Assembly: GCA_903930455.1 (NCBI GenBank)
Contig: CAIYYT010000235.1
Coordinates: forward strand, 64,771-122,922
Direction of reading: 5' to 3'
Length of the DNA: 58,152 nt
DNA from: an uncultured bacterium
Lineage (GTDB): Bacteria; Zixibacteria; MSB-5A5; CAIYYT01
In this document: positions 10,742 to 57,005 of the stretch, in pieces
Position numbering within the stretch: position 1 is the first letter of the stretch
Layout of the letters: every line of letters starts with the position of its first letter
The notes under the pieces: generated by a model
What the model was told of the DNA's origin: nothing
The model's input: only the letters and a program-made list of their open reading frames with translations
Database searches by the model: none
Made by a program: the position numbers and the translations under genes

Positions 10742-10762
10742 GAATGTTGGGAATATTCACTA

Positions 10763-10772
10763 CTATATAAAG
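10763..10772 (-). promoter_or_regulatory. Archaeal-type TATA box, leaderless start
   Basis: The minus strand reads CTTTATATAG, centred 26 nt before ATG 10741. The sequence immediately before that ATG has no ribosome binding site. This is the clearest example in the window of archaeal leaderless promoter geometry. Confidence 0.55.
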
Positions 10773-10808
10773 GTTACGGTTCGTGAGGACTGACGGGTAG
10801 TGACACTC

Positions 10809-38223: not shown

Positions 38224-38449
38224 TCTGTCCCCAAGAGTTCATCACGATTTTCAAAGAAAGATATTTGACGACTGTGCGTATGCGCATGATTTCTTGATCA
38301 GTAGTTAATCGAGATGTTTTCGAGGAGATCGTACATCCTAGCCGTTTCGAGTCTGGTGTCGCTGGCTTGAGAAGCTCTTTCGGGGAGGAGGACGCCTCAG
38401 GGTTAGGTGATTACGTGCTCTCAATCGGGGGTTCCCGCGATTCTCCGAT

Positions 38450-38494
38450 GAATCTTGGAATCTTTATAGTCATTACTGTGTGATTCCAAGATTC
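38450..38494. repeat. Perfect 13-bp inverted repeat
   Basis: GAATCTTGGAATC (38450-38462) and GATTCCAAGATTC (38482-38494) are exact reverse complements separated by 19 nt. It lies 82 bp beyond the stop of the HerA-like gene, so it could be a terminator or an operator. There is no strong T-run on either side. It marks the left edge of foreign block 2. Confidence 0.65.
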
Positions 38495-38575
38495 TTCTTA
38501 TAAGGAGGTTGAGAACGCCTGGTGTTGATGAATTCGAAGGAATTGGCTTTGGAAGTGGTGAAATAGGCTTGTCTC

Positions 38576-40552: not shown

Positions 40553-40554
40553 TT

Positions 40555-41115: not shown

Positions 41116-41161
41116 AGTTACCACCTGAATTCTCTTGACTATCCAGTGGTAATCAGCGCGA

Positions 41162-41170
41162 GTATATAAA
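41162..41170 (-). promoter_or_regulatory. Archaeal-type TATA box for the HerA operon
   Basis: The minus strand reads TTTATATAC. Transcription would begin about 25 nt downstream, near 41140, leaving a short leader with an SD (AGGTGG) before ATG 41115. No bacterial -35 element is seen at the right distance. Confidence 0.5.
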
Positions 41171-41334
41171 TGTTGCGATTCAGCAGTAGTAACACACCAC
41201 TGGGTGTCATACAGCTTCGACGCCTCGTCAAGAAGAAAACCGGAAGCCGCCCTCAAAACTCCCGCTCTAGCATTCGACTCTATTACCAGCCATTCCTGTC
41301 CCGCGCAGGGTGCAGGATCACCGATGGAAGAAAC

Positions 41335-43812
41335 TCACTTCAGCATCACCATTTTCTTGCTTATGACAGACCCGCCTGCCTTAATCTGATAGAAATAAAC
41401 GCCGGATGCTAGAGCCTTTCCTTGATCGTCACATCCGTCCCAAGTCCATTGGTGTGCGCCGGCAGCTTTGCGGCCAAACCGTTCCCATCTTACTTCCTGG
41501 CCAATTAAATTGAAGATCTTCACGTCAACGTCAGAAGGTCGATCAAGACTAAAACTGATGATCGTTGAGGAATTGAATGGGTTCGGATAATTCTGGCCAA
41601 GATCGAATCCCTCAGGAATTGTGGCACCGTCATCAAAAACGTCAGCCGGATCTGCTAAAGCACTCAGCTTGGTTACGAAGCCATCACCGTAATCGCCGCC
41701 GTCGTTAAAAGTAGTATCATAGGCGTTCTGCGTGGGGAAGTCGGAAGACCGAGTATACCCCGTCACATAGGCGTTGCCGGAACCGTCGACGGCGATGCCA
41801 TAGCCACGATCGAAGTCTCCCCCGCCCAAGAAGGTGCTGTAGATCAGCGCGTTGCCCACTGCTGAAAATTTGGTCACGAAGGCATCGTAGTCGCCGTTAG
41901 AACTGGCATCATAGGCGTTCAACGTGGGGAAGTTGAAATAAGAGTGAGTTACCCCCGTCACATAGGCATTGCCGCTCCCATCCACGGCGATGCCGTTGCC
42001 CCAATCGCCGTTTGCCCCGCCGAGGTAGGTGCTGTAGATCAGGCTGTCGCCGGTACTGGAGAACTTGGTCACAAAGGCGTCGTAGCCGAAGTAGGGGTAG
42101 TCGGCGTTGAAACTGGCGTCATAGGCGTTGTGCGTGGGGAAGTCGGAAGACACAGTCTCCCCCGTCACATAGGCGCAGCCGGAACCGTCGACGGCGATGC
42201 CCCTGCCATAGTCATTACTCGATCCGCCCAGGTAGGAGCTGTAGACCAGCGAGTCGCCCGCAGCGGAGAGCTTGGTCACAAAGGCGTCGTAGCCGACCTG
42301 ATCCGTCTGATAGGGATTCAAAGTCGGGAAGTTGGTAGAATAAGTCTGCCCCGTCACATAGGCATTGCCGCTCCCATCCACGGCGATGCCGATGCCGACA
42401 TCGTCGATTTCCCCGCCGAGGTAGGTGCTATAGATCAGGATGTCGCCGTCAGCCGAAAGCTTGGTCACAAAGGCGTCGGTAGTGTCTTGGTTCGTCTGAT
42501 AGGGATTCAGAGTTGGGAAGTTGGTAGAAGTAGTCCACCCCGTCACATAGGCATTGCCGCTCCCATCCACGGCGATGCCGTAGCCCTCATCGCCGCCTCC
42601 CCCGCCGAGGTAGGTGCTGTAGATCAGGATGTCGCCGTCAGCCGAAAGCTTGGTCACAAAGGCGTCCATGCTGCCGCCCTGAAGTGTCGCTTGATAGGGA
42701 CTCAAAGTCGGTAGGTTGGTAGAAGCAGTCCACCCCGTCACATAGGCATTGCCGCTCCCATCCACGGCGATGCCGTAGCCCTCATCGAAGTCTCCCCCGC
42801 CGAGGTAGGTGCTGTAGATCAGGCTGTTGCCGGTAGCCGAAAGCTTGGTCACGAAGACATCGACGCTGTTATAACTTGAATCATAGGCGTTGTGCATGGG
42901 GAAGTCGGTAGAGTACTGGGTATACCCCGTCAGATAGGCGCAGCCGGAGCCGTCAACGGCGATACCAAAGCAATAGTCATAACCCGATCCGCCCAGGAAG
43001 GTACTGTAGACCAGCCCAACTGCCTTCGTGCCCGAAGCCTGCTGATTCGCGCCATCGGCCTCAAATTCGGTTGTCTTCTTGGATAACTGCAATAAGGTGA
43101 CATTGCCTGATAGATCACCATTGGTGGGTGGCATGATGGCTGGCGTCATATCTCCCCACTTGGTTGTTAGAACCACTCTGCCATCAGCATCAATTGAAGT
43201 CTCTTCTGCGCCTTCGTATTCAACCTTGATTTGGGCAATTCCCGCGCCCGGCGTGGCTATAAACTCATACGCCACCTGACCGTTGCCGTCACCCGAATAT
43301 TTCAGGTCGACGCCGGGGTAGATGTCTATGAGAGTGATTGATGAGTAGTTCGGAACATCGGCATGCCACTTGGCCGGATCATTACCGATGAAGTAGTTGC
43401 ATTTGTATTCCATTTGGCCTTCGGCGATAACGCGGGGATTTGCTTTTGCGCCGATGAACTTGGCGGTCAACAACAACTGCTGAACGCTGTCTGGCTCGCG
43501 ATCGAACTTATCGAACGATCCCAATCCTGCCAGATCATGGGTGCCATTCAAGCGTGCAGCCATTCTTTCTTTCGAATCAGATTTCGGGATACGTTTAAGG
43601 AACTGATAGGTGATGCCTTCTCTGGTGAACCACAGCGTCGCCCCGCCAGCCGTGGCACGGAACAAGACGCGCTCATCCCACTGCCCAATGTTTCTAGTGA
43701 ATGCTAGCGGTATCTGATTCATCTGCTGAATAGCGGTTGATGGACCTGGAGTTGCACCTGCCATTGCCGGCAGCAGAAGCAGCCCCGTGATCAAAGTCAT
43801 TAACCTTTTCAT
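41335..43812 (-). CDS. Secreted SBBP-repeat beta-propeller protein with sorting domain, 825 aa
   Basis: After a signal peptide ('LMTLITGLLLLPAMAGA') comes an N-terminal domain typical of SBBP proteins ('FTRNIGQWDERVLFRATAGG'). Seven SBBP repeats of the form 'IYSTYLGG...YGIAVDGSGNAYVTG' follow. The C-terminus has 'GFDLGQNYPNPFNSSTIISF' and ends 'GVYFYQIKAGGSVISKKMVM', a FlgD-like/type IX-type sorting domain. It is therefore exported and probably surface-attached. The paralogue at 43999-46467 lies directly upstream. Start ATG 43812, one codon inside the frame, follows GAGGTT. Confidence 0.88.
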   Translation of the reverse strand: MKRLMTLITGLLLLPAMAGATPGPSTAIQQMNQIPLAFTRNIGQWDERVLFRATAGGATLWFTREGITYQFLKRIPKSDSKERMAARLNGTHDLAGLGSFDKFDREPDSVQQLLLTAKFIGAKANPRVIAEGQMEYKCNYFIGNDPAKWHADVPNYSSITLIDIYPGVDLKYSGDGNGQVAYEFIATPGAGIAQIKVEYEGAEETSIDADGRVVLTTKWGDMTPAIMPPTNGDLSGNVTLLQLSKKTTEFEADGANQQASGTKAVGLVYSTFLGGSGYDYCFGIAVDGSGCAYLTGYTQYSTDFPMHNAYDSSYNSVDVFVTKLSATGNSLIYSTYLGGGDFDEGYGIAVDGSGNAYVTGWTASTNLPTLSPYQATLQGGSMDAFVTKLSADGDILIYSTYLGGGGGDEGYGIAVDGSGNAYVTGWTTSTNFPTLNPYQTNQDTTDAFVTKLSADGDILIYSTYLGGEIDDVGIGIAVDGSGNAYVTGQTYSTNFPTLNPYQTDQVGYDAFVTKLSAAGDSLVYSSYLGGSSNDYGRGIAVDGSGCAYVTGETVSSDFPTHNAYDASFNADYPYFGYDAFVTKFSSTGDSLIYSTYLGGANGDWGNGIAVDGSGNAYVTGVTHSYFNFPTLNAYDASSNGDYDAFVTKFSAVGNALIYSTFLGGGDFDRGYGIAVDGSGNAYVTGYTRSSDFPTQNAYDTTFNDGGDYGDGFVTKLSALADPADVFDDGATIPEGFDLGQNYPNPFNSSTIISFSLDRPSDVDVKIFNLIGQEVRWERFGRKAAGAHQWTWDGCDDQGKALASGVYFYQIKAGGSVISKKMVMLK

Positions 43813-43998
43813 CACATAACCTCTTCATCCTATGATCTTTTCTCTGATGATGACTGTCGTCTTGCTCGAAACTTGGTTCAAATGTTTATTTCCTTTTGAT
43901 CGGAAGGGTTCTTCTCCTTTCAATATGGTCTTGTCCCCTGTCGACCATCGATTAAGAAGACAGAGCGGTTTTCTTTGCCATCAATCCGCATGACCCGA

Positions 43999-46467
43999 TC
44001 ACTTCAGCAGCACCATCTTCTTGACTTCAACATGATCGCCAATTCGCAGCCGATAGAAATAGACTCCGGATGCTACCTCTGCTCCCGTGTTGTCCCTGCC
44101 GTCCCATTGGACTTGCTTGCTCCCGGCTGTGAGATGCTCGTTTATCAAGGTCGACACTTTGCGACCCAAGACATCATAAATATCCAAAGATACAAAGGAG
44201 GGTTTGGGAAGGTCGAAACCAATTACCGTGTTCGGATTGAACGGATTGGGATAGTTCTGGTCGAGAGCTGGTTTCCCCGGAAGTGAGACAGGAATCATTT
44301 CGTCAGATACGTCGTTCGGGGGACCTTCATAGTGCAGTTTGGTCACAAAAACATCCCCGCCATTGTATCCGCCGCCTTGATACGTCAACTGATAGGGATC
44401 CAAAGTCGGGAAGTCGGAAGACCAAGTCGTGCCCGTCACATAAGCATTTCCACTGCCATCGATCGCGATGCCGAATCCATAATCGCCATTTCCCCCGCCG
44501 AGGTAGGTGCTGTAGATCAGGCTGTTGCCGGAACTGGATATCTTGGTTACAAAAACATCTGCGCCGTCTTGAAAGGTATGAAAGGGATTCAAAGTCGGGA
44601 AGTTGGAAGAATTAGTAAGGCCTGTCACATAGGCGTTGCCGCTGCCATCGACCGCGATGCCGTTTCCCTGATCGTCGCTTCCGCCACCAAGGTAAGTGCT
44701 GTAGATCAGGCTGTTACCCGGACTGGAAAGCTTGGTCACAAAAGCATCACCATAATAAGTGCCGCCATTATAACTCGTATCATAAGCGTTCTCAGTCGGG
44801 AAGTCGGAAGAGTAGGTACAGCCCGTCACAAAGGCATTGCCACTACCATCGACCGCGATGCCGAATCCATGGTCCAAGCCTAAGCCGCCGAGGTAGGTGC
44901 TGTAGATCAAGCTGCTACCCAGACTGGAGAGCTTGGTCACGAAAGCATCAGCCCAGCCGCTTGGGTCGTCCTGATACGTCTGAAAGGGATTCAAAGTCGG
45001 GAAGTCGAAGGACCCAGTGATGCCTGTTAAATAGGCATAACCACTACCATCGACCGCGATGCCAAATCCATCGTCTTCGCCTGAGCCACCGAGGTAGGTG
45101 CTGTAGATCAGGCTGTTTCCGTAACTGGAGAGCTTTGTCACAAAAACATCATAGACGCCTTGAAACGTCGACTGATAGGCATTCAAAGTCGGGAAATTGG
45201 AAGACGTCGTATAACCCGTCACATAAGCGTTGCCGCTCCCATCGACCGCGATACTCTGTCCCCAATCGCTGCTTCCCCCACCGAGGTAGGTGCTGTAGAT
45301 CAGACTGCCAGAACTGGAGAGCTTAGTCACAAAGACATCCCAGTAGCCAGTTGGGCCTTGATGCGTCTGATAGGGATTCAAAGTCGGGAAGTTGGAAGAC
45401 GCAGTCGCGCCCGTCACATAGGCATTTCCACTGCCATCAACCGCGATGCCGTGTCCAATATCGTAGTCTCCCCCGCCGAGGTAGGTGCTGTAGATCAGAC
45501 TGTTGCCGGAATTTGACAACTTGGTCACAAAAGCATCACCGGGACCTTGATACGTCTGATAGGGATTCAAAGTCGGGAAGTCGGAAGAAACAGTCTGGCC
45601 CGCCACATAGGCATTGCCGCTGCTATCAACCGCGATGCCGCTTCCATAATCCCAATTTCCCCCACCGAGGTAGGTGCTGTAGGACAGCACGACTGATAGC
45701 GTACCCAGCGCCCGTTGGGTCGAACGATCGGTTTCAAATCCAATCGCCATCTCTGACAACTTCGAGAAGCTGACTTCACCGGACAGAATATCATTTGTGG
45801 GCATCTTGATCGCCGCAAGTACATCGCCCCATTTGGTCTTCAGAATCAGTCTGCCATCAGCATCAGTCGAAGTCTCTTCCGCTCCTTCGTATTCAACCTT
45901 GATCTGCGCGATATCCGCACCCGGCGCGGTGACAAACTCGTATGCTGCCTGACCATTGCCGTCGCCGGAGTATCTCAAATCTATGTTGGGATAGATGTCC
46001 TTGAGCGTGATCGCTTCGAAGTTCGGAACATCGGTATGCCATTTCGCCGGGTCGTTGCCGAGGAAGTAGTTGCACTTGTATTCTATCAGCCCTTCGGCGA
46101 CAACTTCAGGATTTGGATTCGCGCCGACGAATTTGGCGGTCAGTACCAACTGCTCAACGCTGTCCGGTTCCGTGTCATTCCCGCGCATGTGGGAATCCAG
46201 ACCCTTCATAGGGTTAGTACCATTCTTGTCAATTCGTCGGGTGAATTGATACGTTATGCCTTCTTTGGAGAACCACATCGTAGCGCCCCCGGCGCTGGCA
46301 CGGAACAGGACGCGCTCATCCCATTGGCCCATGTTTTTTGTGAAGGTCAAGGGCATCTGGTTCATTTTCTGAATCGCAGTGGATGAACCTGGATTAGTCG
46401 TTGCCATGAGGGTAGAAACCAGAAGCAACAAGAGAACTGTTAGGATCAAAGCTTTTCTGCAGAACAT
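43999..46467 (-). CDS. Secreted SBBP-repeat beta-propeller protein with sorting domain, 822 aa
   Basis: Same plan as the gene downstream: a signal peptide ('LILTVLLLLLVSTLMA'), the 'FTKNMGQWDERVLFRASAGG' domain, seven SBBP repeats and a C-terminal 'LDQNYPNPFNPNTVIGFDLP' sorting region ending 'YRLRIGDHVEVKKMVLLK'. The start at ATG 46467 is fixed by GGGAGG 6 nt upstream. The two proteins are tandem duplicates that have diverged throughout, with repeat-to-repeat variation in the propeller tips, as expected for binding surfaces. Confidence 0.9.
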   Translation of the reverse strand: MFCRKALILTVLLLLLVSTLMATTNPGSSTAIQKMNQMPLTFTKNMGQWDERVLFRASAGGATMWFSKEGITYQFTRRIDKNGTNPMKGLDSHMRGNDTEPDSVEQLVLTAKFVGANPNPEVVAEGLIEYKCNYFLGNDPAKWHTDVPNFEAITLKDIYPNIDLRYSGDGNGQAAYEFVTAPGADIAQIKVEYEGAEETSTDADGRLILKTKWGDVLAAIKMPTNDILSGEVSFSKLSEMAIGFETDRSTQRALGTLSVVLSYSTYLGGGNWDYGSGIAVDSSGNAYVAGQTVSSDFPTLNPYQTYQGPGDAFVTKLSNSGNSLIYSTYLGGGDYDIGHGIAVDGSGNAYVTGATASSNFPTLNPYQTHQGPTGYWDVFVTKLSSSGSLIYSTYLGGGSSDWGQSIAVDGSGNAYVTGYTTSSNFPTLNAYQSTFQGVYDVFVTKLSSYGNSLIYSTYLGGSGEDDGFGIAVDGSGYAYLTGITGSFDFPTLNPFQTYQDDPSGWADAFVTKLSSLGSSLIYSTYLGGLGLDHGFGIAVDGSGNAFVTGCTYSSDFPTENAYDTSYNGGTYYGDAFVTKLSSPGNSLIYSTYLGGGSDDQGNGIAVDGSGNAYVTGLTNSSNFPTLNPFHTFQDGADVFVTKISSSGNSLIYSTYLGGGNGDYGFGIAIDGSGNAYVTGTTWSSDFPTLDPYQLTYQGGGYNGGDVFVTKLHYEGPPNDVSDEMIPVSLPGKPALDQNYPNPFNPNTVIGFDLPKPSFVSLDIYDVLGRKVSTLINEHLTAGSKQVQWDGRDNTGAEVASGVYFYRLRIGDHVEVKKMVLLK

Positions 46468-46687
46468 GTCAGCCTCCCACGGGTGCACGGGTGAGACAAT
46501 GAGTTATGTAATCAGAAATCAATATAGTACGGTTATGCCAGTTTGTCCAGTGAATTCGTGCGGTCAGATGGAGCTCTCAGCTACGAGCGAGCCGCTGTCC
46601 GACACAGTCGCTGAGACGCCTGATTCCTTGCGAGGGACGAAGTGTTGACGTACTGTCAAAGCGATCAATATCATCCCAACATGAAAA

Positions 46688-46709
46688 CCGGGAGTGTCTC
46701 GACTCCCCG
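46688..46709 (-). terminator. Terminator of the dockerin propeller gene
   Basis: On the minus strand GGGGAG pairs with CTCCC(G) around an 8-nt loop and is followed by GGTTTTC. It lies about 25 bp after the stop at 46734. Its loop resembles the hairpin at 7409-7430. Confidence 0.6.
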
Positions 46710-46733
46710 TCATCAGTCATTCATCACACTCGC

Positions 46734-49625
46734 TTATTTACACCCCGCGCACGGTTGAGGCCCACCACTAAAGATGTAGGCGATCAGATATACCGCATCC
46801 GAGATATTGACCGTTCCATTGCAATTGGCGTCACCGGCGAGCAATGGCGATGGCGCCGGACCGCCTGAAAAGATGTAGGCGATCAGGTAGACAGCATCAG
46901 AGATGTTGACGGTGGCATCAGCGTTGGCGTCACCGCACTTATAGTCGCAGGCGTCGCCGATGCCATTGTGATTACTGTCGAGCTGTGAAGGATTGGCGAT
47001 TGTCGGGCAATTGTCGCAGGCATCGCCAAAGCCATCGGTGTCAGTGTCAGTCTGCGTGGAGTTAGCGACAGTTGGGCAGTTATCGACGACACAGGTGTTC
47101 GCCGCAAAACCGGGGTTACCAAAGCCATCACCGTCCGTGTCAGTACACGGGTCGCAAGCATTTCCGATGCCATCGTGATCGGTATCAGCTTGATCGGAAT
47201 TGGCAAGCGTCACGCAATTATCACAGGCATCACCGACACCATCGGCATCACCATCAATCTGCGTCGGGTTGGCAACAAACGGGCAATTATCGACTACATC
47301 GAGGATGCCGTCAATGTCAGTATCCAATATTGAAGTCCACCGCGCCAGAAAAGCCGAGACCTTATTTCCGGCAATCGTAAAATTGCCCCCTGCTATCAGT
47401 TTCCCATCGTAAACGGTCAAGGCCGGAGGAAAGCCAGAAAAAAAAGGAACTATCCCCGATCCCAACACCGACCAACTGCTCCCATCCCATGAGGCTATCG
47501 TGCTCGCCGCTACACCGCCAGCCGTTGTGAAACGGCCGTACGCTATCAATTTCCCGCCGTACACGGTCATGGACCAGACCATGCCATTCATTCCCGCGCC
47601 CAACGGCGACCAATTGCTCCCATCCCAGGAAGCGATGTTATTCGCTGCCACTCCACCGGCTGTTGTGAAACCGCCACTCGCTATCAGTTTACCATCATGC
47701 ACTGTCAAAGCCCAGACGCTGCCGTTCATTCCCGACCCCAATGGCGACCAATTACTTCCATCCCACAAAGCTATGCGATTTGCCGTCACGCCACCCGCTG
47801 TCGCAAAAGAGCCCCCCGCTATCAATTTCCCGTCGTATACAGTGAGTGCCAAGACATCGCTATTCATTCCCGACCCCAATGGCGACCAATTACTTCCATC
47901 CCACAAAGCTATGCGATTTGCCGTCACGCCGCCAGCCGTTGTAAACTCGCCCCCCATTATCAGTTTTCCGTTGTATGCGGTTAAAGCATAAATCCAGCCA
48001 TTCATTCCAAGCCCTAATGGCGACCAATTGCTCCCGTCCCACGAGGCTATGTAACTTGCTGGCACGCCCCCAGCCATTGTGAACATGCCCCCCGCTATCA
48101 GTTTCCCGTCATACTGGTTCAGTGTCAAGACTGATTGATTCAACCCCAAGCCCAGAGGCGACCAATTGCTTCCATCCCAGGACGCTATCTTGCTTGCCGC
48201 CACGCCCCCCGCCGTAAAGAAAGGTCCTCCCACGATCAATTTCCCGTCGTACACAGTCAGGGCCCGGACTTCGCCCCCCATGCCCGACCCAAGAGACGAC
48301 CAATTGCTCCCATCCCAGGATGCTATGTTGGCCGCTCCGACGCCGCCAACTTCATTGCAACTTCCCGCCGCTATCAGTTTCAAATCATACAGGGTCAGGG
48401 CATTGATAACGGGTGACGTCGAGGTCGTCAATGTGGAACCCAAAGGCGACCAATTGCTCCCATCCCAGGAAGCTGTTCCTCTCACCAACACACCACCAGC
48501 CGTTTCAAACCACCCCCCCGCTACCAGTTTCCCCCCGTACGCAGTCATGGACAAGACCCTGCTATTCACCCCCGCTCCTAACGGTAACCAACTACCCCCA
48601 TCCCAAGAAGCAATGTAGTTCGCTGCTACGCCTCCTGCCGTTGTGAAATCGCCCCCTGCTATCAGATTCCCACCATATACACTCAGGGCTCGGACAATGC
48701 TATTCGTCCCTGACCCCAACGAGTCCCAGTCGCTCCCGTCCCACGAAGCTATGCGGTTCGCCGACACTAAGCCAGCCGCTGTAAAATCGCCCCCCGCTAT
48801 CAGTTTACCGTTGTATGCGGTTAAAGCATTGACCCCGCCACTCATTCCAATCCCCAACGGCGACCAATTACTCCCATCCCAGGAAGCTATCCTGCTCGCC
48901 GCCACACCACCGGCCATTGTGAAACCGCCCCCTGCTATCAGTTTCCCGTCGTACACGGTCATGGATGAGACAGTGTTATCCATTCCCGATCCCAGCGGCG
49001 ACCAGTTGCTCCCATCCCATGAGGCTATCCTGTTCGTCACCACGCCGCCAGCCGTTGTAAAACGACCCCCTGATATGAGTTTCCCGTCGTACACGGTTAA
49101 GGAATAGACCGTGGTATCCATCCCCGATCCCAATGGAAACCAGGAGATACCGTCCCAGGCGGCGACGTTGTTGGCTTTTATATTGCCGGCAACCAAGAAC
49201 ATCCCTCCGACGACAAGTTTACCATCATAAACGGTTGCCGCATAAACTGTGCCTCCAACGCCGGCAACCGAGGGGGAGATGCTGTTGTCCCAGTAAATGT
49301 CATCAGGGTCATCGGTTGGCGAAGCGGGAGAAGCCGGGCGAAATATCGGCTGACCGGTAGCCGGATCAATTGACGACTCAAATCCCTTCAAATCCAGCGA
49401 TCCTTCATACCCTGATTGCCGCGCGGCCTCCAGATCAAATCTGCCATCAGGGGTAAGAAACTCCCCAAGACTTCGTGCCGAATCCAATTTGCTTGGCATT
49501 GATTGTAACCGGTCATTCTTGACGTTGCCACTTGGCAAATCGTTGGCGAAAACTGCAATTGCCAGCATCAACACACCGGTCAAAATGAACACAGTTATAC
49601 GCCGGGGCATTCTCCAACCTTTCAT
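46734..49625 (-). CDS. Secreted repeat propeller with thrombospondin-3 and dockerin modules, 963 aa
   Basis: A signal peptide ('[18 protein letters not shown]') is followed by about fourteen 40-residue repeats with '[21 protein letters not shown]' and '[16 protein letters not shown]' cores, a kelch/delta-60-like propeller. Near residue 770 begins a run of Asp-rich thrombospondin type 3-like calcium repeats with CxN and 'DxDxDGxGDxCDNC' patterns. The protein ends with two dockerin EF-hand units ('[20 protein letters not shown]', '[20 protein letters not shown]') and 'CAGCK'. Start ATG 49625 has AGGAG upstream. Dockerins usually bind cohesins, but no cohesin is in the window; in this lineage they may serve cell-surface attachment. 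Confidence 0.88.
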
Positions 49626-49943
49626 GGTTGCACTCCTATTTGTAGTTCTAGCACAGTTGTCTTCCGCACGTTGTCTGGTCCAAGGCAAGTAACGCAGGAC
49701 GCTTGGCGTCCCGATCAAATTCCACTCGCTAACTAGACAAAGATAGGCATCATGCCGGTTTTGTCAAGATGAATCTGCCCGCTTCCGGGTACCTCCTGTA
49801 GTAAATTCTGCTAAACAAGGATGTACCCGATAGCTTTCTCAATACCTAATTTCCACATAAGAATTTACGCTATGCGTCCTCTTCGGGGATTGCTCGCCGT
49901 GGTTCGCCAAGAGGTGGTTGGCGGGTGTTTGGTGTGGGGGTGA

Positions 49944-49969
49944 GAAGGGGCCGTTTCTTTGGCCCCTTC
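49944..49969. terminator. Strong hairpin between convergent-edge genes
   Basis: GAAGGGGCC (49944-49952) pairs perfectly with GGCCCCTTC (49961-49969). On the plus strand it is followed by CTTGTGCTTTT. It sits just beyond the stop of the SAP-domain gene (49984) and marks the left edge of foreign block 3. Confidence 0.65.
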
Positions 49970-49983
49970 CTTGTGCTTTTGGG

Positions 49984-51363
49984 TTATGCTTCGACGTTGA
50001 GATATGCTCCTGTTGCGGTCACTTCTCCTTTGATGAGCGCCGTTGCAAGAGATACCAAGTCGTAGGTATCGTTGTCGTGGCTGGCCTCCAGGACTGTGTT
50101 TCCTCTGAGGTGTTTGGTGGTGTACATGGCGAGGATGAACTCTTTCAAGTCGCAGTCGTTGATTACGTTGAATGGGTGTGATTCGCTTAGGCCGGCTGTG
50201 GTGTTGATGTAGTGGTTTTGGTTGAAGTAGTTGTCTAGTTCTGGTTCCTTTTCTCGGTAGACTTTGGCTGCCAGCTTGGCAAGTTTCTCCAACAATTCCT
50301 CCTTTCGGCCAGTCATGGCGACGTCGTGGTTCTTGAGCATCTCTTTGATCATCTCCCCCGAAGCGTTGGCTCGGATGAATCCGCCGATCGAATAAGTATG
50401 TACTCGATGTTCGGTGAAGGCGGCGTTGGCAACGCCGGCCTCTTTTGGGGCGAGGTAGTTGAGGTTGGGGAAGCCGATCTGGAAGTTGCCTTTCTCAATC
50501 ATCATTTCGGCTGTTTCGATGTCAGTGGTGAAGCAGTATCTGCCTTTGTCGTTGCGCCAGCGCTCGGCGATTTGCCTTGCTTGTTCTCTGATGGCGTGGC
50601 GGGGAACCAAGGATGGTAGCATGCGGATGGATTCGCCTTTTCGTGTGCAGGTGTAGATGATGCTTTCCGAGTAGGCGATGTTGCGATAGCCGTCTGAGCG
50701 CATCTGGAAGTGGCTGATTGAGTCAGTTAGTTTGAGTTTTCCTTGGTCGTCGGCGATCTGCGCGAGTACGCTTGCCGGTCTGAAGTTCGTTATGGGCAAG
50801 GCCTGGCTGATCAAGACACTTTCCTCGTCTTGGAAGTCTTCCAACGTGAGTATCTGGCTCAAGTCGTAACTATTGATGTCGTTGTAGCCGGATAGCTTGA
50901 TCTGCTTGCTCTTGCCCTTCAGGAAGTCCCTGAGCGAGTTGAAGTCACTGTAAACCCTCGAAAGGAGATTGTACACTGTCTGGTGGTTCCAGTTGGCTGC
51001 GAGGGTCCTCTTGGCGATAGCGACCAGCTGCAAGTAGCCGAGCCCGTCCACAAAGTAGAGATGGTCTCGGATGTCGGCAAGCAGCCTTTCGAACATGGTT
51101 CCTTCCCGATAATAAGTTCGTTCAGTTGAATAGCTGATTTCGTGGCTGTAGCCCAGCTCTTTGAGTTCCGAAATCAGTTGATCTGGCGCATTTAGTCTTT
51201 GCAGGGTGGCTTCGATAATGTGGCTTGAGTGATCGCTACACCCCCAAGGATGGACGCCCCTGAGCAAGACGTCAGCAAGCGAAACTTCATTAATCTTGAA
51301 GGTTAGGCGTTTGAATTCGGGTACTTGCTCATCTGGTATTAGTGACAGCTGGATAGTTTGCAT
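49984..51363 (-). CDS. SAP-domain protein of unknown function, 459 aa
   Basis: A SAP-like motif is visible at about residues 330-365 ('MIKEMLKNHDVAMTGRKEEL' then 'LEKLAKLA'), the leucine-rich helix-turn-helix with TG and K that SAP domains use to bind DNA. The rest is a mixed fold with no known signature. The ATG at 51363 has GGAGGTG upstream and overlaps the end of the MoxR gene by 25 nt, so the two are coupled. It would be the last gene of the AAA/VWA operon. A DNA-binding or targeting role is inferred from the SAP motif alone. Confidence 0.75.
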   Translation of the reverse strand: MQTIQLSLIPDEQVPEFKRLTFKINEVSLADVLLRGVHPWGCSDHSSHIIEATLQRLNAPDQLISELKELGYSHEISYSTERTYYREGTMFERLLADIRDHLYFVDGLGYLQLVAIAKRTLAANWNHQTVYNLLSRVYSDFNSLRDFLKGKSKQIKLSGYNDINSYDLSQILTLEDFQDEESVLISQALPITNFRPASVLAQIADDQGKLKLTDSISHFQMRSDGYRNIAYSESIIYTCTRKGESIRMLPSLVPRHAIREQARQIAERWRNDKGRYCFTTDIETAEMMIEKGNFQIGFPNLNYLAPKEAGVANAAFTEHRVHTYSIGGFIRANASGEMIKEMLKNHDVAMTGRKEELLEKLAKLAAKVYREKEPELDNYFNQNHYINTTAGLSESHPFNVINDCDLKEFILAMYTTKHLRGNTVLEASHDNDTYDLVSLATALIKGEVTATGAYLNVEA

Positions 51364-52853
51364 ACAACTTCACCTCCATTTGCGGTTGACTGGTGATGGT
51401 TGGAGATCAATAATTCAAAGGTCTCCAGGTCCTTTTCGATTGCTTCTCGGGTCCGCTCGATGTCATTGAGTTGAAGGTTCTGCTTTCTGGCGAGCTCGGC
51501 GACATGGCTGTAAGCGACGATCTTGGCCAAGTCAGACTGCTGATCCAGCAACTCCTCAACTTCCTCAACAAACTCGATACATTCTCCTTGAAGGTTCGGG
51601 ATGCACTTGCTGGAGAGCTTCTCGCCAGAGACCTTGCGGCTCAAACCTTCCAAAAGCTCTCTCGGAACTGTGCCGGGACGGCGTGCCTCAACCTGCAATG
51701 CGGTGTAGGCTAGCAAGGTGATGTCTTGCTCGCCGTTTATTAAGTCATTCCAAGCTTTGGAAGCCGCAAACTCTCCCAAGTTGGCTGTGAGTAGGATTTC
51801 GGCTTTGCGCATCAAGTCCTTCGACGTAAACAGCTCATAGATAGTGTTGACCTTCTCCATATCCGAGCCCTCGGCGAAAAAGCTGCTGAGTAAGTCAAAG
51901 CAGATTTCCATCCTGTGAACGGCTTCTTCTTTCTTGAGTGATTCATCGTTCAAACCGACGGGAATGCTGGATTGGACGACGTAGCGAGCTGACTTGACAA
52001 AGTCTGGAGTTGCCGCGCTGAGTACTTCGGATTTGGCGATTTCGATGGCCCGGTTGGAGAGGATGTTTCGGTAGATGAAGCCCAGCCTCCTACCGTCAAG
52101 TGAGATGTCGCCCTTGGATTCCCGCATCAGGAGGTCGGCGAAGCGAGCCAGGAATAGGGAAAGCGTTGAGTACTGTTCTCTCAGGGCGTTGAAGTGCCTG
52201 GCTGCAGTGTGGAATATCTGTGTCATCTTCTGACCGATTTCCTTCACTTCCTGCTTGTCAACTGTGCCACTGGTTTGTCCGTTGTTCCAGACTGAGATTG
52301 CCGGGGCGTCATCGCCGTTGATGTGGCCGGTGACTTTAATGCGGTCTTCTTCCTCCATCTGCAAGACGTCGGGAGGGTAAACAAACAAGGCGAAGCGTCC
52401 GATCAACGCTTCATCCAATGCCTGGGTGGCTGAGTAGCTCATGGGGTTCATGGCTGCCCAGACCCATTTGACCTTGGTTTCGAAGCCCATGATCTTGCGG
52501 CTGCGGATGATTTCGAGCCATTTGCTTTGTAGTTCGGGGACGGCACGATTGAGCTCGTCTATCAGGACTAGTTCTTTGTCCCAGATGGTAACATTGCTCG
52601 GAACGTACTCCACGACGCCCTGTCTCAGTTTTTCGATATTCGGGAAGCCAAGTATATCCTCAAACATGCACTTGCTTGCGTCGTAGACGAGTGACTTCCG
52701 GTTGAGTGCCTGGCCGATTTTGTTGGCAACGTGGGTTTTTGCGCAACCGTGATTGCCGATCAGCAGAAGCGGGTCGCCAGTCAAGAGCGATGACAGGATT
52801 AGGTTTTCGTCTTCGTCTTTCCAGCCGTAGATGCCGAGTGTTTCGAGTATCAT
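51339..52853 (-). CDS. MoxR-type AAA+ ATPase, 504 aa
   Basis: Walker A 'LLLIGNHGCAKTHVAN', Walker B 'LVLIDELNRAVPEL', a sensor Asn in 'WVWAAMNPMSYSATQ' and an arginine-finger area 'DEALIGRFALFVYPP' define a MoxR-family AAA+ module in the first 230 residues. The C-terminal half is helical and unrecognised. MoxR ATPases act as chaperone-like remodelers together with VWA-domain proteins. The gene upstream on this strand encodes exactly such a VWA protein. The start is ATG 52853 with AAGGAG; the longer frame to 52946 is not supported. Confidence 0.88.
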   Translation of the reverse strand: MILETLGIYGWKDEDENLILSSLLTGDPLLLIGNHGCAKTHVANKIGQALNRKSLVYDASKCMFEDILGFPNIEKLRQGVVEYVPSNVTIWDKELVLIDELNRAVPELQSKWLEIIRSRKIMGFETKVKWVWAAMNPMSYSATQALDEALIGRFALFVYPPDVLQMEEEDRIKVTGHINGDDAPAISVWNNGQTSGTVDKQEVKEIGQKMTQIFHTAARHFNALREQYSTLSLFLARFADLLMRESKGDISLDGRRLGFIYRNILSNRAIEIAKSEVLSAATPDFVKSARYVVQSSIPVGLNDESLKKEEAVHRMEICFDLLSSFFAEGSDMEKVNTIYELFTSKDLMRKAEILLTANLGEFAASKAWNDLINGEQDITLLAYTALQVEARRPGTVPRELLEGLSRKVSGEKLSSKCIPNLQGECIEFVEEVEELLDQQSDLAKIVAYSHVAELARKQNLQLNDIERTREAIEKDLETFELLISNHHQSTANGGEVVCKLSSCH

Positions 52854-52906
52854 TTGTCTTCTCCTTGCCCTTCTTTGTCCCAAAAGAGGGTGACAAAAAA
52901 GGAAAA

Positions 52907-52937
52907 GGGGAGATCCTCGCTGATGAGGATTCTCCCC
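52907..52937. terminator. Stable hairpin between VWA and MoxR genes
   Basis: GGGGAGATCCTC pairs with GAGGA-T-TCTCCCC, 12 bp with one bulge. It lies in the leader of the MoxR gene, after the small gene at 52960. It could be an attenuator or mRNA-processing stem rather than a full terminator, since no T-run follows on the minus strand. Confidence 0.5.
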
Positions 52938-52959
52938 GTGGTTCAAGTGTTTTTGGTTG

Positions 52960-53118
52960 TTAGTTGTTGTTAAGTCGAAATGAGTGGATGTGCGCTATGT
53001 GGATTGTGACCCCTTTTCCGTTACGACGTCGAGCCTCAATCAACATAAAATGACTGTTGCCGAGGCTGACAGTGGCTTGTGGTTTCTTCCTGGTTTTCTC
53101 CTTTCTATTCGCAGACAT
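52960..53118 (-). CDS. Small basic protein between VWA and MoxR genes, 52 aa
   Basis: The ATG at 53118 lies inside the last codons of the VWA gene in another frame (14 nt overlap). The product starts with a basic tail ('MSANRKEKTRKKPQA') and continues with 'TVSLGNSHFMLIEARRRNGK' and 'GVTIHIAHIHSF', which looks like a small beta fold. There is no Shine-Dalgarno sequence, so translation would rely on coupling. It is conserved-looking but unconfirmed. Confidence 0.45.
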   Translation of the reverse strand: MSANRKEKTRKKPQATVSLGNSHFMLIEARRRNGKGVTIHIAHIHSFRLNNN

Positions 53119-54400
53119 CTGAGAGGTTGACGACGTCGCCGAACTTGGCGAAGTCTTCGCAGGTGGTTGTGCCGTCGAAGAGGATCGTCAACGTGACGAG
53201 CCCCATGGCTTTAAGCTGCTTTGCTAATTCCTCCGACATGTCAGCGTAGCCGTCAGTGATGATGATTGCCTTTTCGAATCGTCTTTCGATTATTGAATTG
53301 GCTATGCAGTTGAAGTCGGTTCCATAACTGGTCCTGATTTTGCCTTTGATCAAATCTTGCATGGTGGTTTCGACGACGATGTTCGAAAACAGGAACAACG
53401 AGGTGACACTGTTTTTCAACTTTGACAGGACTCCGATGATTTGCGGCAAGTATTCGTTTACGCTCCCTGAGACGTCAAGGTAGATCGCCAATCCTTTCTC
53501 TTCAGTTGTTGGTTTGGATGTGTGGTTGTGGAAGTACCCCGGATAGAACCCCGAAGCTAATAGTACCAGGTCGCGTTTGGAGGGATACAATGGAATGGGT
53601 GAAACACCCACACGCTGAACCCGAAAGTACTCCCTAAAACGATCAAGTTTGCGCTTGGTCAGAAATTTCTGCAGCAAGACCTTCTTGATCGACAGGTGCG
53701 TTTTCAACGCCTCCATAAACAGATCAAGCAGTTCAGAGCTGAATCCGGCGTACTTTCCCCCTCTGCCGGCAACGCTACGCTTCAAATCTTCGGCGATCCT
53801 AGAAAGCAGCTCGTTTGGAAAAGCGGCCTCTTGACTCGCTGCGTTCCCGTCGTGGGAGTGGCTACCAATCAAGACAACCGTGGAAAGCCTTTCGCTTTGC
53901 GTCAGAATCTTCAATGTCTGGATCAACTCACCTGTGGTGAAGGAGTCGTGTTCGTCGCTTTGGCTGTACAGCCTTTCGTAGACCTTGCTGTATTTGCTGC
54001 GCGACATCTCGCTCATAGGCCGTAATAGCCCAGGAAGTCCTCGATCCGGATAAAACTTGCGGAACAGATTACCGTTGCGTGAAGCTTCAGAGTATACTTC
54101 GCTGATTACGGCATTGATGATTGCATCAGCAGCGATGTTCTCCAGCTCGCCATTTTCGTAAATGAAGTGGCCGAACATCGGATGCAACAACTCGTGAAAG
54201 ACCAAGCTGAACAAGTCTTCCTTGCAAGTGATGTGTTTCTCGACGAACCCAGGATTATATGACAGTCTGCCTTCGATGTTGATTGACGCCGTCGGAATAG
54301 CGGCATCCTCCACCACTTCAGTAATAAAGCCGGCGACGAAGCTGTCAAAACCGAGAGCATCTTTGAGTACTTCTCTCACGGTTTCGAGATTGATTTTCAT
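53105..54400 (-). CDS. VWA-like putative metallopeptidase (DUF2201-type), 431 aa
   Basis: The N-terminal half carries a zinc-peptidase motif HExxH in 'SLVFHELLHPMFGHF' with a downstream acidic region. The C-terminal half is a von Willebrand A-like domain with a MIDAS 'IYLDVSGSVNEYL', a Thr in 'RTSYGTDFNC' and 'AIIITDGYADM'. This fusion is the plan of DUF2201 proteins, which typically sit beside MoxR ATPases, as here. ATG 54400 has AAAGGAGGT upstream. The protein could be a protease or a metal-dependent adaptor remodelled by the AAA+ partner. Confidence 0.88.
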   Translation of the reverse strand: MKINLETVREVLKDALGFDSFVAGFITEVVEDAAIPTASINIEGRLSYNPGFVEKHITCKEDLFSLVFHELLHPMFGHFIYENGELENIAADAIINAVISEVYSEASRNGNLFRKFYPDRGLPGLLRPMSEMSRSKYSKVYERLYSQSDEHDSFTTGELIQTLKILTQSERLSTVVLIGSHSHDGNAASQEAAFPNELLSRIAEDLKRSVAGRGGKYAGFSSELLDLFMEALKTHLSIKKVLLQKFLTKRKLDRFREYFRVQRVGVSPIPLYPSKRDLVLLASGFYPGYFHNHTSKPTTEEKGLAIYLDVSGSVNEYLPQIIGVLSKLKNSVTSLFLFSNIVVETTMQDLIKGKIRTSYGTDFNCIANSIIERRFEKAIIITDGYADMSEELAKQLKAMGLVTLTILFDGTTTCEDFAKFGDVVNLSDVCE

Positions 54401-54865
54401 GTTTACCTCCTTTCAAGGCACAAAATGAAAATGCCAGATGGTCTGCTTGAGCAAGCCGTCAGGCGGTTGATTTGTGTTCTTCTCGATGAATTCATCGCGA
54501 AGAGCTATTGGTGAGATTTATCAGAAAAGACTAAAGCGCGCTCTTAGAGCACAACTAAACAGGATACATTGGAGCGTGATATCTACTTAGCGTCGCCTTT
54601 GCTTTCGCTCGTCGCCCAGCGACGAAAACGAGGGTAGCCAATTTCAATTCACTCTCACCAAGACGGGCAGAGGTGAAGACGATTATTGGTTCTCGGTTAG
54701 TCTGGGTATCAGATCAACTCTTACGAGGATCACAAACCAGATTGTTACTATCACACAGTGGGAATGAGCCAATGCTTATAAATCTTTCGATCATACAACC
54801 TTAGCCCCATTTGGAAAATTGACAAGCCCGAACAAACGGAAACTCCAAGAGCCAATAAGCAAACC
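54401..54865. other. Long 5' region of the VWA operon
   Basis: No gene is supported. It contains the TATA-like element at 54775-54789 and a GC-rich hairpin near 54606-54625 (CGTCGC stem around TGG). If transcription starts near 54750, the VWA mRNA has a leader of about 350 nt, long enough for regulatory structure or an unrecognised small gene. Confidence 0.4.
54775..54789 (-). promoter_or_regulatory. Archaeal-type BRE/TATA element
   Basis: The minus strand reads CGAAA (BRE-like, 54789-54785), two bases, then TTTATAAG (54782-54775). This is close to the archaeal BRE-TATA consensus and is oriented toward the VWA/MoxR/SAP operon. On the plus strand the same bases read CTTATAAAT. Confidence 0.5.
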
Positions 54866-54867
54866 AT

Positions 54868-55005
54868 GAGGAAAAAGAAGAAAAGGAGAAGGAAGAGAAG
54901 AAAAAAAGAGGAAAAAGAGGGAGAAAAAAAAGGGGGAAAGAGGAGGGAAAGAGGAGAAAAAGAGGAAAAAAAGAAGAGAGAAAAAGAAAGGAAGAAAAGG
55001 AAAAA
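54868..55005 (+). repeat. Uninterrupted 138-nt polypurine tract
   Basis: Every base on the plus strand from 54868 to 55005 is A or G, with near-pure purine continuing to about 55035. The plus strand also has an open frame of 52 codons (54866-55024, 'MRKKKKRRRKRRKKEEKEGE' onward) made almost only of Lys, Arg, Glu and Gly, with no ribosome binding site. The minus-strand frames give Phe/Ser/Leu-rich nonsense. A DNA-structure role (triplex or H-DNA, replication) seems as likely as coding. Confidence 0.8.
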
Positions 55006-55090
55006 CGAGAAACGAAGAAAATGAACGAAAAGCAACGGACCACATCAAAACAATACATCCAGAACTGAATCAAAAAAATGAATCCAGGTC

Positions 55091-55375
55091 CTAAATCCAA
55101 GGAACGATCCGAACGTTCCACCACTTGATCGAAGTGCGATTCTCAACCACCATCACCCTTTCCTCCAACGACTTCACCCTTCGACATCCAGGATCCTTCC
55201 AAACCACCGAGTAGACCGCGACAAGAGGACAACGACCAACCCACTTGTGAATCTGCCAGGAAAACACCCTATCGACCTTCCGAGGTGCCTGCGCCTCCAA
55301 AATCGCCGCCTTGATCACCTGACTGTAATCAATCTCATACATACCAAATCTTCTCTTCTGTTTGTCTGCTTCCAT
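55091..55375 (-). CDS. Small basic hypothetical protein, 94 aa
   Basis: ATG 55375 follows GGAGGTG at good spacing. The product is basic and Trp-rich near the end ('SIKWWNVRIVPWI'), with a central 'VFSWQIHKWVGRCPLVAVYS'. No motif is recognised. It stands alone between the polypurine tract and the inverted repeat at 55399-55443. Confidence 0.55.
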   Translation of the reverse strand: MEADKQKRRFGMYEIDYSQVIKAAILEAQAPRKVDRVFSWQIHKWVGRCPLVAVYSVVWKDPGCRRVKSLEERVMVVENRTSIKWWNVRIVPWI

Positions 55376-55398
55376 CTTACACCTCCAGGAGCTCTCAC

Positions 55399-55443
55399 GT
55401 GAACTCCGTTTTATTTCAATTTTTCAAAAAAAACGGGGTTCAC
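55399..55443. repeat. 14-bp inverted repeat with A/T-rich spacer
   Basis: GTGAACTCCGTTTT (55399-55412) and AAAACGGGGTTCAC (55430-55443) match at 13 of 14 positions. It lies immediately upstream of the 55091-55375 gene and beside the structured element at 55461, so it may be an operator for the gene or a terminator for the RNA. Confidence 0.6.
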
Positions 55444-55460
55444 CAATCACACGGAGACCG

Positions 55461-55568
55461 GCTTGCTGCCAGGACGGGGAGCGACCCCGAAGGGGGAAAG
55501 CTTTACTAAATAGTTCGCGATGAGCGAATCTATTAGCTAAAGCTTTAGCCCCCGGCCCAGCAGCAAGC
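55461..55568. ncRNA. Candidate structured RNA or hairpin origin, about 108 nt
   Basis: An 8-bp closing helix, GCTTGCTG (55461-55468) with CAGCAAGC (55561-55568), encloses two hairpins. The first is CGGGG (55475-55479) with CCCCG (55485-55489). The second is a long rod from GGGGG (55492-55496) to CCCCC (55549-55553) with segments of 5, 9, 4, 3 and 5 bp separated by small bulges, including AAAGCTTTA with TAAAGCTTT and TTCGC with GCGAA around a GATGA loop. No open frame crosses it. It matches no RNA family I know. Either strand could be the transcript; a replication origin is the main alternative. Confidence 0.6.
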
Positions 55569-55594
55569 AGCGCCAACCGTTGAACATACTTCCT

Positions 55595-55837
55595 TCAGGA
55601 TAACGTGCATTTAAGTCCTGCAAATAGGTGCTGTCCATGCTTCCCTCTAGATCCCGAGCTCCAACTCCCATCGATCGTCAACCCATTCTGTCCGGCGCCC
55701 TCTATTGCTATCTTCCCATCCAATCTCTTCTTTTTCCCTTTTTCCCTCTTTTCTCTTTCCCCTTGTTCTCTTTCCTTTTTCTTCTTTCTCCCTCTTTTCC
55801 CTTTTCTCTTTTTTCTTTTATTCGATTTCTGATACAC
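55595..55837 (-). CDS. Possible Lys/Arg/Glu-rich protein, 80 aa (weak)
   Basis: The frame from GTG 55837 starts 'MYQKSNKRKKRKGKRGRKKK' and becomes Gly/Ser-rich toward the end. Its purine-rich part is the complement of the pyrimidine tract at 55724-55819. No ribosome binding site is visible. It may only reflect low complexity, but it parallels the Lys/Arg/Glu frame at 54866. Confidence 0.25.
   Translation of the reverse strand: MYQKSNKRKKRKGKRGRKKKKEREQGEREKREKGKKKRLDGKIAIEGAGQNGLTIDGSWSSGSRGKHGQHLFAGLKCTLS
55724..55819 (+). repeat. 96-nt polypyrimidine tract (one interruption)
   Basis: All bases but one G at 55765 are C or T. It is therefore the reverse orientation of the polypurine tract 700 bp away, so the two tracts form an inverted pair around the 55091-55375 gene and the structured element. 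Confidence 0.75.
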
Positions 55838-55949
55838 TTGACAAGTCGTTACCTACCACAAGATTCACAGTATCATAATCGTATCATTATTCCGGAGGAG
55901 TGAAGCAATTTCGGCACCGTTTTCAGGCGATTTTGTTACGTCAAAATGG

Positions 55950-56840
55950 CTATTCTGAGGGGTCCAGAGGGCAGTCGAATGCTAGTGAGGGGCCGAGGAT
56001 TGAGTGGCGCTCCCCCTGGAAGTCGCCGGCCTTCGCCCAGATTGTTGCTGATGCGCCCCTTTGAAAAAGGGAATCTGAATCGGTTAGCCAGATGAAGCCT
56101 ATGTTCGGCATTGCCGCCACGAGATGGCAAAGCTGGTCAAGTCGTTTCCTTGACGGCGCCAAAAACAAGATCCTGAACCCGTTGAAAGTTCCCCCGAGGG
56201 GCCCCTCAAGTTCCTTATAGCGGTTGTCCGTGAACATGTGCTGGTAGGAGATGATCTTTTTGCGGATATCCTTTGTTTGGGGATTGCTGCTCGACAGCGT
56301 CTCTGTGCCCATATCAACTTCCAGAAAGAACAACAACGACTTGCCATGGTTTGCCTCGCTGATCGCGAATATTCCGTCCGGAATCACATTGGCCACTGAA
56401 TCGGAACCGGAATTGGCTGTCACATACCAAGCGCCGTCTCTCGCTAGTGACAGAAAGCTGACCGTTAGAACGGACTGAAAACGGCTGAGAATGCTCAAGT
56501 TGATTCTAAACCAGTTCGTCAGAAGCTGATGCCCCAAAGTGCGCAAATCAATCCTGGTGAATAGTTCGGTTGGCGTCGAAGGATCGAGTGCTCCCTGCTC
56601 TTTCAGAGTCTGCACGCCATCTGCCCGAAGGTAGACGACGTTTTCGGGTCGTCCGGCGGAACCACCGAGTGGTTGACGCATGACCTCGATCAGTGCCACT
56701 TTCGACAGTTCACCGACTTTTCGGCGTATCATCTGTTGACTGGAAGATAAGAGGAATGAAAGTTGGCTGATATTCAATACTCTGTATTCCGCTATTGCCG
56801 ATAGCAGCCCGAGTTCTCTTGGTGACAGCGTTTTCCTCAT
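55950..56840 (-). CDS. Replication-relaxation family protein, 296 aa
   Basis: An N-terminal winged-helix region ('LGLLSAIAEYRVLNISQLSF' to 'KVGELSKVALIEVMRQPLGG') is followed by the family's core with 'VIPDGIFAI' and 'LLFFLEVDMGTE', the D...ExD pattern of replication-relaxation proteins. These occur in plasmids and integrative elements of bacteria and archaea and are tied to plasmid replication or mobilisation, though their chemistry is unclear. It is the rightmost gene of foreign block 3 and the best evidence that the block derives from a plasmid-like element. Confidence 0.82.
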   Translation of the reverse strand: MRKTLSPRELGLLSAIAEYRVLNISQLSFLLSSSQQMIRRKVGELSKVALIEVMRQPLGGSAGRPENVVYLRADGVQTLKEQGALDPSTPTELFTRIDLRTLGHQLLTNWFRINLSILSRFQSVLTVSFLSLARDGAWYVTANSGSDSVANVIPDGIFAISEANHGKSLLFFLEVDMGTETLSSSNPQTKDIRKKIISYQHMFTDNRYKELEGPLGGTFNGFRILFLAPSRKRLDQLCHLVAAMPNIGFIWLTDSDSLFQRGASATIWAKAGDFQGERHSILGPSLAFDCPLDPSE

Positions 56841-56950
56841 CCCAAACTATTGCGGATGAGTCGAGGAAGTAGTTTCAGGTGTTTGCGGATAACAGCGGAA
56901 GCAGTCAGGCCGGATCATGAGCCGCGCCGGTGCGAATGGGCGTCACTTAC

Positions 56951-56973
56951 ACCGGCAAGATCGTACTGCCGGT
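56951..56973. repeat. Short inverted repeat ACCGGCA...TGCCGGT
   Basis: A perfect 7-bp inverted repeat with a 9-nt loop (56951-56957, 56967-56973) lies between the replication-relaxation gene and the IS remnant. It could be part of an element end or a terminator for rightward transcription. Confidence 0.4.
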
Positions 56974-57005
56974 ATGACCGTCGGGGAGGGGACTTCAAGG
57001 TCATG

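Follow-up and report, generated by a model that had tools for sequence, protein, structure and literature searches.

Which target might an AAA+ machine encoded on a mobile element act upon? This question is raised by a block of minus-strand genes in a 58,152-nucleotide stretch of DNA (contig CAIYYT010000235.1, positions 64,771 to 122,922; here called the window) from an uncultured bacterium of the phylum Zixibacteria. A preliminary description of the block had combined a MoxR ATPase, a peptidase-VWA protein and a SAP-domain protein of 459 amino acids (aa) into a possible undescribed DNA-directed ATPase/protease system for element maintenance or defense. Our analysis revealed that the three-protein AAA+ module is genuine: its genes are encoded together, it is conserved in three copies of the element, and the overlap of the MoxR gene with the gene for the 459-aa protein recurs in a second genome. 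Our preferred interpretation, to which we assign a probability of roughly 40%, is that a mobilizable-type element uses the module to remodel or process a protein target bound to DNA.

Conservation of the module in three element copies and in a second genome

The open reading frames (ORFs) for the 459-aa protein, the MoxR ATPase, the VWA protein, a 94-aa protein and a Replic_Relax protein all lie on the minus strand (Table 1). The positions and strands previously given for the 459-aa, MoxR, VWA and Replic_Relax ORFs proved correct. Additional copies of the 459-aa protein, the VWA protein and the Replic_Relax protein are encoded elsewhere in their own genome (G000). Positions 49923 to 55574 align with positions 23763 to 29382 of contig C2 (copy 2) at 88% DNA identity, and positions 49923 to 55339 match contig C199 from base 1336 to the contig end (1336 to 6726; copy 3). 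Contig C205 carries on with positions 55326 to 56985 at 92% identity. Because C199 and C205 meet at homologous positions and the secreted-protein ORFs split at the ends of C199 and C127 complete each other, C127, C199 and C205 very probably form the third copy, joined in that order. The copies are mosaics, since the Replic_Relax protein of copy 2 is a more distant version with 48% identity. Between positions 55173 and 56423, copies 1 and 3 are 95 to 98% identical, compared to approximately 88% over most of the module, and a recent exchange between element copies is likely there.

The ratio of nonsynonymous to synonymous substitutions (dN/dS) between the copies was 0.08 to 0.11 for the 459-aa protein, 0.03 to 0.05 for MoxR and 0.08 to 0.11 for the VWA protein, which is 91 to 92% identical among all copies. 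The synonymous divergence (dS) was about 0.5 to 0.8. These values, from 0.03 to 0.11 at a dS of approximately 0.5, indicate that the three copies are old and that each has been kept under strong purifying selection; a block with such conservation in three copies is far beyond chance. The three natural paralogs, with all three proteins strongly selected, make the functional residues readable. The 52-aa ORF that had been described as an overlapping gene gave a dN/dS of 0.8 to 1.1, and its ATG start codon is replaced by ACG in copy 2. It is probably not a gene and was rejected as a fourth subunit.

Among 133 genomes of the phylum, the 459-aa protein was detected in two, its own and G084, which belongs to the same class and encodes a homolog with 52% identity over 455 residues. 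The G084 contig (3.2 kb) ends within a gene that resembles the C terminus of MoxR over its last 36 residues (47% identity), and the end of this MoxR-like gene overlaps the start of the 459-aa homolog. The 459-aa gene follows MoxR at every locus with a visible neighbor (4/4, the three copies and G084). The co-occurrence of the SAP-like protein with MoxR, on which the preliminary description had staked its proposal, was therefore observed at all four loci, including the independent one, and the three proteins can be treated as one conserved module. In G084, no VWA protein was detected, which says little because the AAA part of the MoxR gene is likewise missing from that assembly. Nothing useful emerged when phages, plasmids and viral contigs were searched with the 459-aa, VWA and MoxR proteins, and beyond the two genomes the 459-aa family was missing from all data searched. 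The sole match of the 459-aa protein among the genome contigs (L017) was dismissed as a chance match of one short motif in an unrelated 162-aa ORF.

Components of the module

The MoxR ORF extends to position 52946 with a TTG codon. Because the ATG at 52853 is common to all three copies, translation most likely starts there and yields 504 aa. A Pfam search identified an AAA_5/AAA_3 domain, in agreement with the assignment as a MoxR ATPase, and the P-loop GNHGCAKT, the Walker B motif LVLIDE, the sensor-1 residue N136 and R153 are intact. The MoxR and 459-aa genes share 25 nucleotides (51339 to 51363), as had been noted. The whole set had been described as coupled. This holds for the MoxR/459-aa overlap; the VWA and MoxR genes are not simply coupled, since a conserved terminator-like hairpin (52907 to 52937) lies between them. 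Because this hairpin precedes MoxR, the VWA protein and the MoxR-459 pair may be made in different amounts.

The VWA protein matched phrog_1314 with an E value of 4.9e-24 over residues 32 to 395. In Pfam, VWA_CoxE, DUF2201_N and DUF2201 all remained under their cutoffs, with 17.8 versus 23.2 bits and 17.1 versus 26.4 bits for the DUF2201 families (PF13203/PF09967). The earlier label of a DUF2201-type peptidase-VWA protein is thus correct with respect to the HExxH and VWA architecture and is not borne out at the level of the curated family. The peptidase motifs H69-E70-L-L-H73-xxxx-H78 (HELLHPMFxH) and N88-x-A-x-D92-xxx-N96 and the metal ion-dependent adhesion site (MIDAS) residues D309xSxS313, T361 and D383 are all invariant. 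The VWA domain reaches the C-terminal end of the protein, and no effector is fused to it.

The 459-aa protein had no match in Pfam, NCBIfam, PADLOC or PHROG, and profile searches of the Protein Data Bank (PDB) with all three module proteins gave no match. Its family is previously undescribed and forms a new part of the module. The SAP domain assigned to it earlier corresponds to a plausible SAP-like segment at residues ~336 to 362, which stays under the threshold of the SAP family (PF02037; cutoff, 23.9 bits). The full-length protein of the window had no Pfam SAP match, and scores of 12.2 to 16.4 bits were obtained with relatives or with the isolated segment: the G084 segment scored 16.4 bits in isolation (E = 0.007), copy 3 scored 13.7 bits, and the full G084 homolog, in which SAP was the sole Pfam match, reached 12.2 bits. 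The SAP domain of yeast Tho1 in the PDB covered matching positions of this segment at an E value of 0.7. The resemblance is the best recurring subthreshold match and, being unproven, provides a lead rather than a result. Comparison of the window protein with its G084 homolog revealed the most conserved stretches at residues 151 to 180 (70%) and 421 to 450 (73%). Because the latter also contains many conserved D, H, R, K, N and E residues, the C-terminal region may represent the working surface of the protein.

Mobile-element backbone

The Replic_Relax protein matched PF13814 with 63.2 bits (cutoff, 25.3), confirming the replication-relaxation protein of the preliminary description; in PADLOC, it gave only weak helix-turn-helix matches. 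For streptococcal mobilizable elements, PF13814 has been listed among the MobC-type relaxase families (PMC5357655). Together with this relaxase-type protein, a 660-aa HerA/TraD-like ATPase that passes the DUF87 and TrwB_AAD_bind cutoffs leads us to read the backbone, by family membership, as that of a mobilizable-type element. The C terminus of the ATPase contains a winged-helix/nuclease-like region assigned by eye, and the product of its partner gene measures 221 to 243 aa across the copies (ATPase and partner region, 38357 to 41256 in the window). The order is the same in all three copies: three small genes, the HerA-like ATPase with its partner, variable secreted proteins and the module. 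The distance from the small genes to the ATPase part is 27.5, 13.4 and 1.4 kb in the respective copies. These findings place the module on a mobile-element backbone, as had been suggested. No integrase or type IV pore genes were recognized in the parts common to the copies.

HerA-like proteins are encoded in 15 of the 133 genomes, 14 of which do not carry the module. Since HerA-like genes mostly occur without it, the module is not needed for the element backbone and is an optional but stable part of it.

Proposed function and alternative explanations

In the proposed mechanism, a MoxR hexamer would grip the VWA protein, and ATP would drive the remodeling of a target. The HExxH domain could cleave this target or its own VWA protein, and the role of adaptor, bringing the machine to the target, would fall to the 459-aa protein. 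The target would most likely be a protein bound to the element DNA, in a relaxosome, a replication complex or a coupling complex. For NorQD, published work supports a model of pulling and twisting of the VWA partner by the MoxR ring (PMC13036017). A role in element maintenance or transfer is favored over defense mainly because of the gene neighbors and the conservation of the module. A DNA-directed ATPase/protease is allowed by the data and remains unproven. A narrower version is held only tentatively: a SAP-like adaptor might direct the AAA+/metalloprotease to DNA and clear or process bound proteins while a MOBC-type mobilizable element is transferred or becomes established, with the hairpin at 55461 to 55568 as its own or the relaxase's site. 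If so, the DNA-bound targets could perhaps be the relaxase, replication proteins or host defense proteins.

Several observations weigh against the preferred interpretation. The link of the 459-aa protein to DNA consists of the subthreshold SAP match and the gene neighborhood. The AlphaFold models of the 459-aa and VWA proteins were too poor for use (predicted local distance difference test scores of 36 and 33). In the sister species G001, the HerA gene is present with 90% identity and all three module proteins are lacking, and HerA-type elements in G001, G108 and G007, of the same genus and class, are devoid of the module. Neither the relaxase nor the HerA-like protein was detected in G084, although the contig there measures only 3.2 kb.

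Mobile elements often carry defense genes, and the module could be a ternary MoxR-vWA system in which the third protein detects foreign DNA or attacks it, thereby protecting the host or the element. We consider this doubtful. Ternary conflict systems of this type have been described (PMC7159879), the MoxR protein scored just under the cutoff of the bpMoxR profile (25.8 versus 27 bits), and the Ala-Lys in its P-loop GNHGCAKT is reminiscent of the GXXXTAKS variant of the conflict systems. However, none of the MoxR, VWA and 459-aa proteins had a match in PADLOC, no effector domain is fused to the VWA protein, and the module contains no VMAP, iSTAND, FtsH or beta-propeller component. Moreover, variable effectors are a hallmark of those systems (PMC7159879), whereas the paralogs studied here are conserved and not diversified; a diversifying conflict system was accordingly lowered in view of the dN/dS values. 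The defense role considered in the preliminary description is thus unsupported so far. Rather unlikely, too, is a chaperone for cofactor insertion or protein maturation of the NorQ/NorD, RavA/ViaA or CobS/CobT type that would serve a host or element enzyme and have no DNA role. Such is the role of the characterized MoxR-VWA pairs (PMC13036017, PMC3893208), but the module encodes neither a metalloenzyme nor a respiratory complex, and its stable neighbors are the relaxase, the HerA-like ATPase and the 94-aa protein.

Directly downstream, all three copies encode secreted proteins of large size, SBBP/DUF5122 proteins among them, that bear sorting or dockerin tails, and virion assembly and structural-protein processing have been proposed for a similar phage pair (PMC7824862). 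The module might hence assemble or proteolytically mature the surface proteins, large secreted beta-propeller proteins among them, that are encoded between it and the HerA-like gene. The secreted cargo, however, varies between the copies, and the same kind of genes flanks HerA copies without the module (L060 and L061), which makes this explanation improbable. A decayed or neutral hitchhiking block with no present function, of which the single terminal remnant of the 459-aa gene on C2 could be a sign, is contradicted for the three main genes by the selection test in three copies, and all catalytic motifs are intact; we give this explanation almost no weight.

Flanking genes and noncoding features

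The coordinates of the module and of the surrounding features are compiled in Table 1.

Table 1. Features of the module and the element in the window
Feature	Position	Strand	Remarks
Three small genes, one with weak similarity to replication initiator O	9194-10834	+	Kept with the element in three copies
HerA/TraD-like ATPase, 660 aa	38576-40558	-	DUF87 and TrwB_AAD_bind above cutoff; CedD-like; three copies
233-aa partner gene of HerA-like ATPase	40555-41256	-	No family match
Conserved module, copy 1 of 3	49923-56990 (right end ~56990)	-	~88% DNA identity to copies 2 and 3
Terminator-like hairpin, left boundary of module	49944-49969		Terminator scan
459-aa third component	49984-51363	-	dN/dS 0.08-0.11
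MoxR AAA+ ATPase, 504 aa	51339-52853	-	AAA_5/AAA_3 (Pfam), phrog_1297, alignment
Terminator-like hairpin followed by T-run, between VWA/52-aa ORF and MoxR	52907-52937	-	In all three copies
52-aa ORF, probably not a gene	52960-53118	-	dN/dS 0.8-1.1
Metallopeptidase-VWA protein, 431 aa	53105-54400	-	phrog_1314, weak Pfam matches, motifs
Conserved noncoding leader 5' of VWA gene (~460 nucleotides)	54401-54862	-	90-91% identical in all copy pairs
Polypurine (+)/polypyrimidine (-) tract	54866-55030		Imperfectly complementary to tract 55720-55820
94-aa ORF	55091-55375	-	Kept in all three copies; no family match; absent from preliminary description
Long hairpin	55461-55568		z = -7.6 versus shuffled sequence
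Polypyrimidine (+)/polypurine (-) tract	55720-55820		
Replic_Relax (MOBC-type relaxase family) protein, 296 aa	55950-56840	-	PF13814, E = 4.5e-17; phrog_9381, "replication initiation by nicking"

The structured element mentioned earlier corresponds to the long hairpin. Elsewhere in the genome, its core was located at C44, C92 and C235:56647. The other elements that share the core (L035, 801 to 863; L036, 809 to 878; L037, 1501 to 1563) display compensated base pairs. In an alignment of six copies, 97.6% of the cells pair, and two pairs are changed on both sides; shifting the partner by one column reduces the pairing to 48% or less. These six sequences provide modest evidence for a conserved structure. 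Because it lies beside the relaxase-type gene, the hairpin is a candidate origin of transfer (oriT) or replication site. At 56.6 kb of C235, the hairpin is positioned upstream of a TOTE-type primase gene, near genes for a Cdc6-like ATPase and a tyrosine recombinase. This locus (L008, 9356 to 14730; C235, 54 to 59.5 kb) is an integrase-bearing element that encodes an archaeal-type Orc1/Cdc6-like protein with Cdc6_lid and Cdc6_C domains and an AEP-TOTE primase, the shared hairpin being immediately upstream of the latter. In another genome, a Cdc6-like gene is located beside a HerA-like gene (L061, 5454 to 6497).

The leader of the VWA gene, which the preliminary description had not mentioned, contains no ORF and no strong fold of its own (z = -1.7). 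Since it is 90 to 91% identical where about 63% would be expected for neutral sequence at a dS of 0.5, it is constrained noncoding DNA or RNA. Rfam yielded no match at gathering scores for the hairpin or the leader, and a mir-965 match (E = 0.86) was discarded as chance. The purine/pyrimidine tracts reported previously were found again. They are of opposite sense and flank the 94-aa gene and the hairpin; their composition is held between the copies, while length and sequence drift. In a transcript, the two tracts could base-pair with each other; alternatively, they could give rise to triplex DNA.

Positions 41335 to 49718 of the window encode three large secreted proteins of the beta-propeller type (SBBP/DUF5122, with sorting-signal or dockerin tails). 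In the other copies, the slot between the HerA-like gene and the module holds similar secreted genes with different content. On C2, a scar between two secreted-protein genes (L005, 10934 to 11265) joins the end of a 459-aa gene to the initial region of the 233-aa gene, which suggests that element units have recombined with one another.

Comparison with known systems

MOBC-type mobilizable elements likewise carry a Replic_Relax protein along with an ATPase of the TraD/HerA type; here, a new module sits between the relaxase and the coupling-type ATPase. The cellular DUF2201-VWA/MoxR, NorQ/NorD, RavA/ViaA and CobS/CobT systems also consist of an AAA+ ring and a VWA partner. DUF2201 proteins share the HExxH-VWA architecture, although the Pfam scores obtained here lie under the curated cutoffs. 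In contrast to these systems, the module has no cofactor enzyme nearby. The MoxR-vWA ternary conflict systems comprise VMAP, iSTAND, FtsH or a vWA-fused beta-propeller, typically with variable effectors (PMC7159879). They resemble the module in that MoxR, vWA and a third conserved protein are encoded in one operon, and differ from it in their third components, effector domains, fused beta-propellers and diversification.

A likeness was also found among phages. PHROG assigned MoxR to phrog_1297 and the VWA protein to phrog_1314, the families that include gp24 and gp25, respectively, of phage N4 (Schitoviridae). The N4 gp25 protein and a Delftia relative carry HExxHxxxxH, NxACDxxxN and DxSGS with the same spacing as the VWA protein, and the two N4 genes are also adjacent and run in one direction. 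Profile alignment by hhalign supported remote relationships, with 77% probability for the VWA protein and gp25 over the VWA domain and 57% for MoxR and gp24 over the AAA core. In contrast to the module, N4 has MoxR before VWA and no gene of 459-aa size directly beside the pair, and its MoxR has 352 aa and a GMGKS-type P-loop, compared to 504 aa and GNHGCAKT here. PHROG 1314 is labeled "HNH endonuclease," an annotation that looks wrong, as its members (N4 gp25, L066 3165 to 4307; window protein, 53105 to 54400) show HExxH and VWA motifs.

Group 2.2 jumbo phages encode a MoxR and metallopeptidase-vWA pair proposed to act as chaperone and cochaperone in virion assembly and processing (PMC7824862). 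Compared by description, this pair matches the module in that a MoxR AAA+ protein adjoins a vWA protein with an N-terminal metallopeptidase domain; Walker A, Walker B and sensor residues, an N-terminal HExxH motif and an intact MIDAS are all present here. In contrast, the module resides on a relaxase-bearing element and has a third conserved protein. MoxR/metallopeptidase-VWA pairs occur in many phages, including N4, and the literature surveyed does not state their targets. In the module, such a pair is accompanied by a conserved third protein and has a relaxase and a DNA pump in its surroundings, which provides a concrete and testable hypothesis on these targets. By family membership, the two-gene core belongs with the MoxR/metallopeptidase-vWA pairs known from jumbo phages and N4, so that the pair itself is not undescribed; the 459-aa component and the element context are new.

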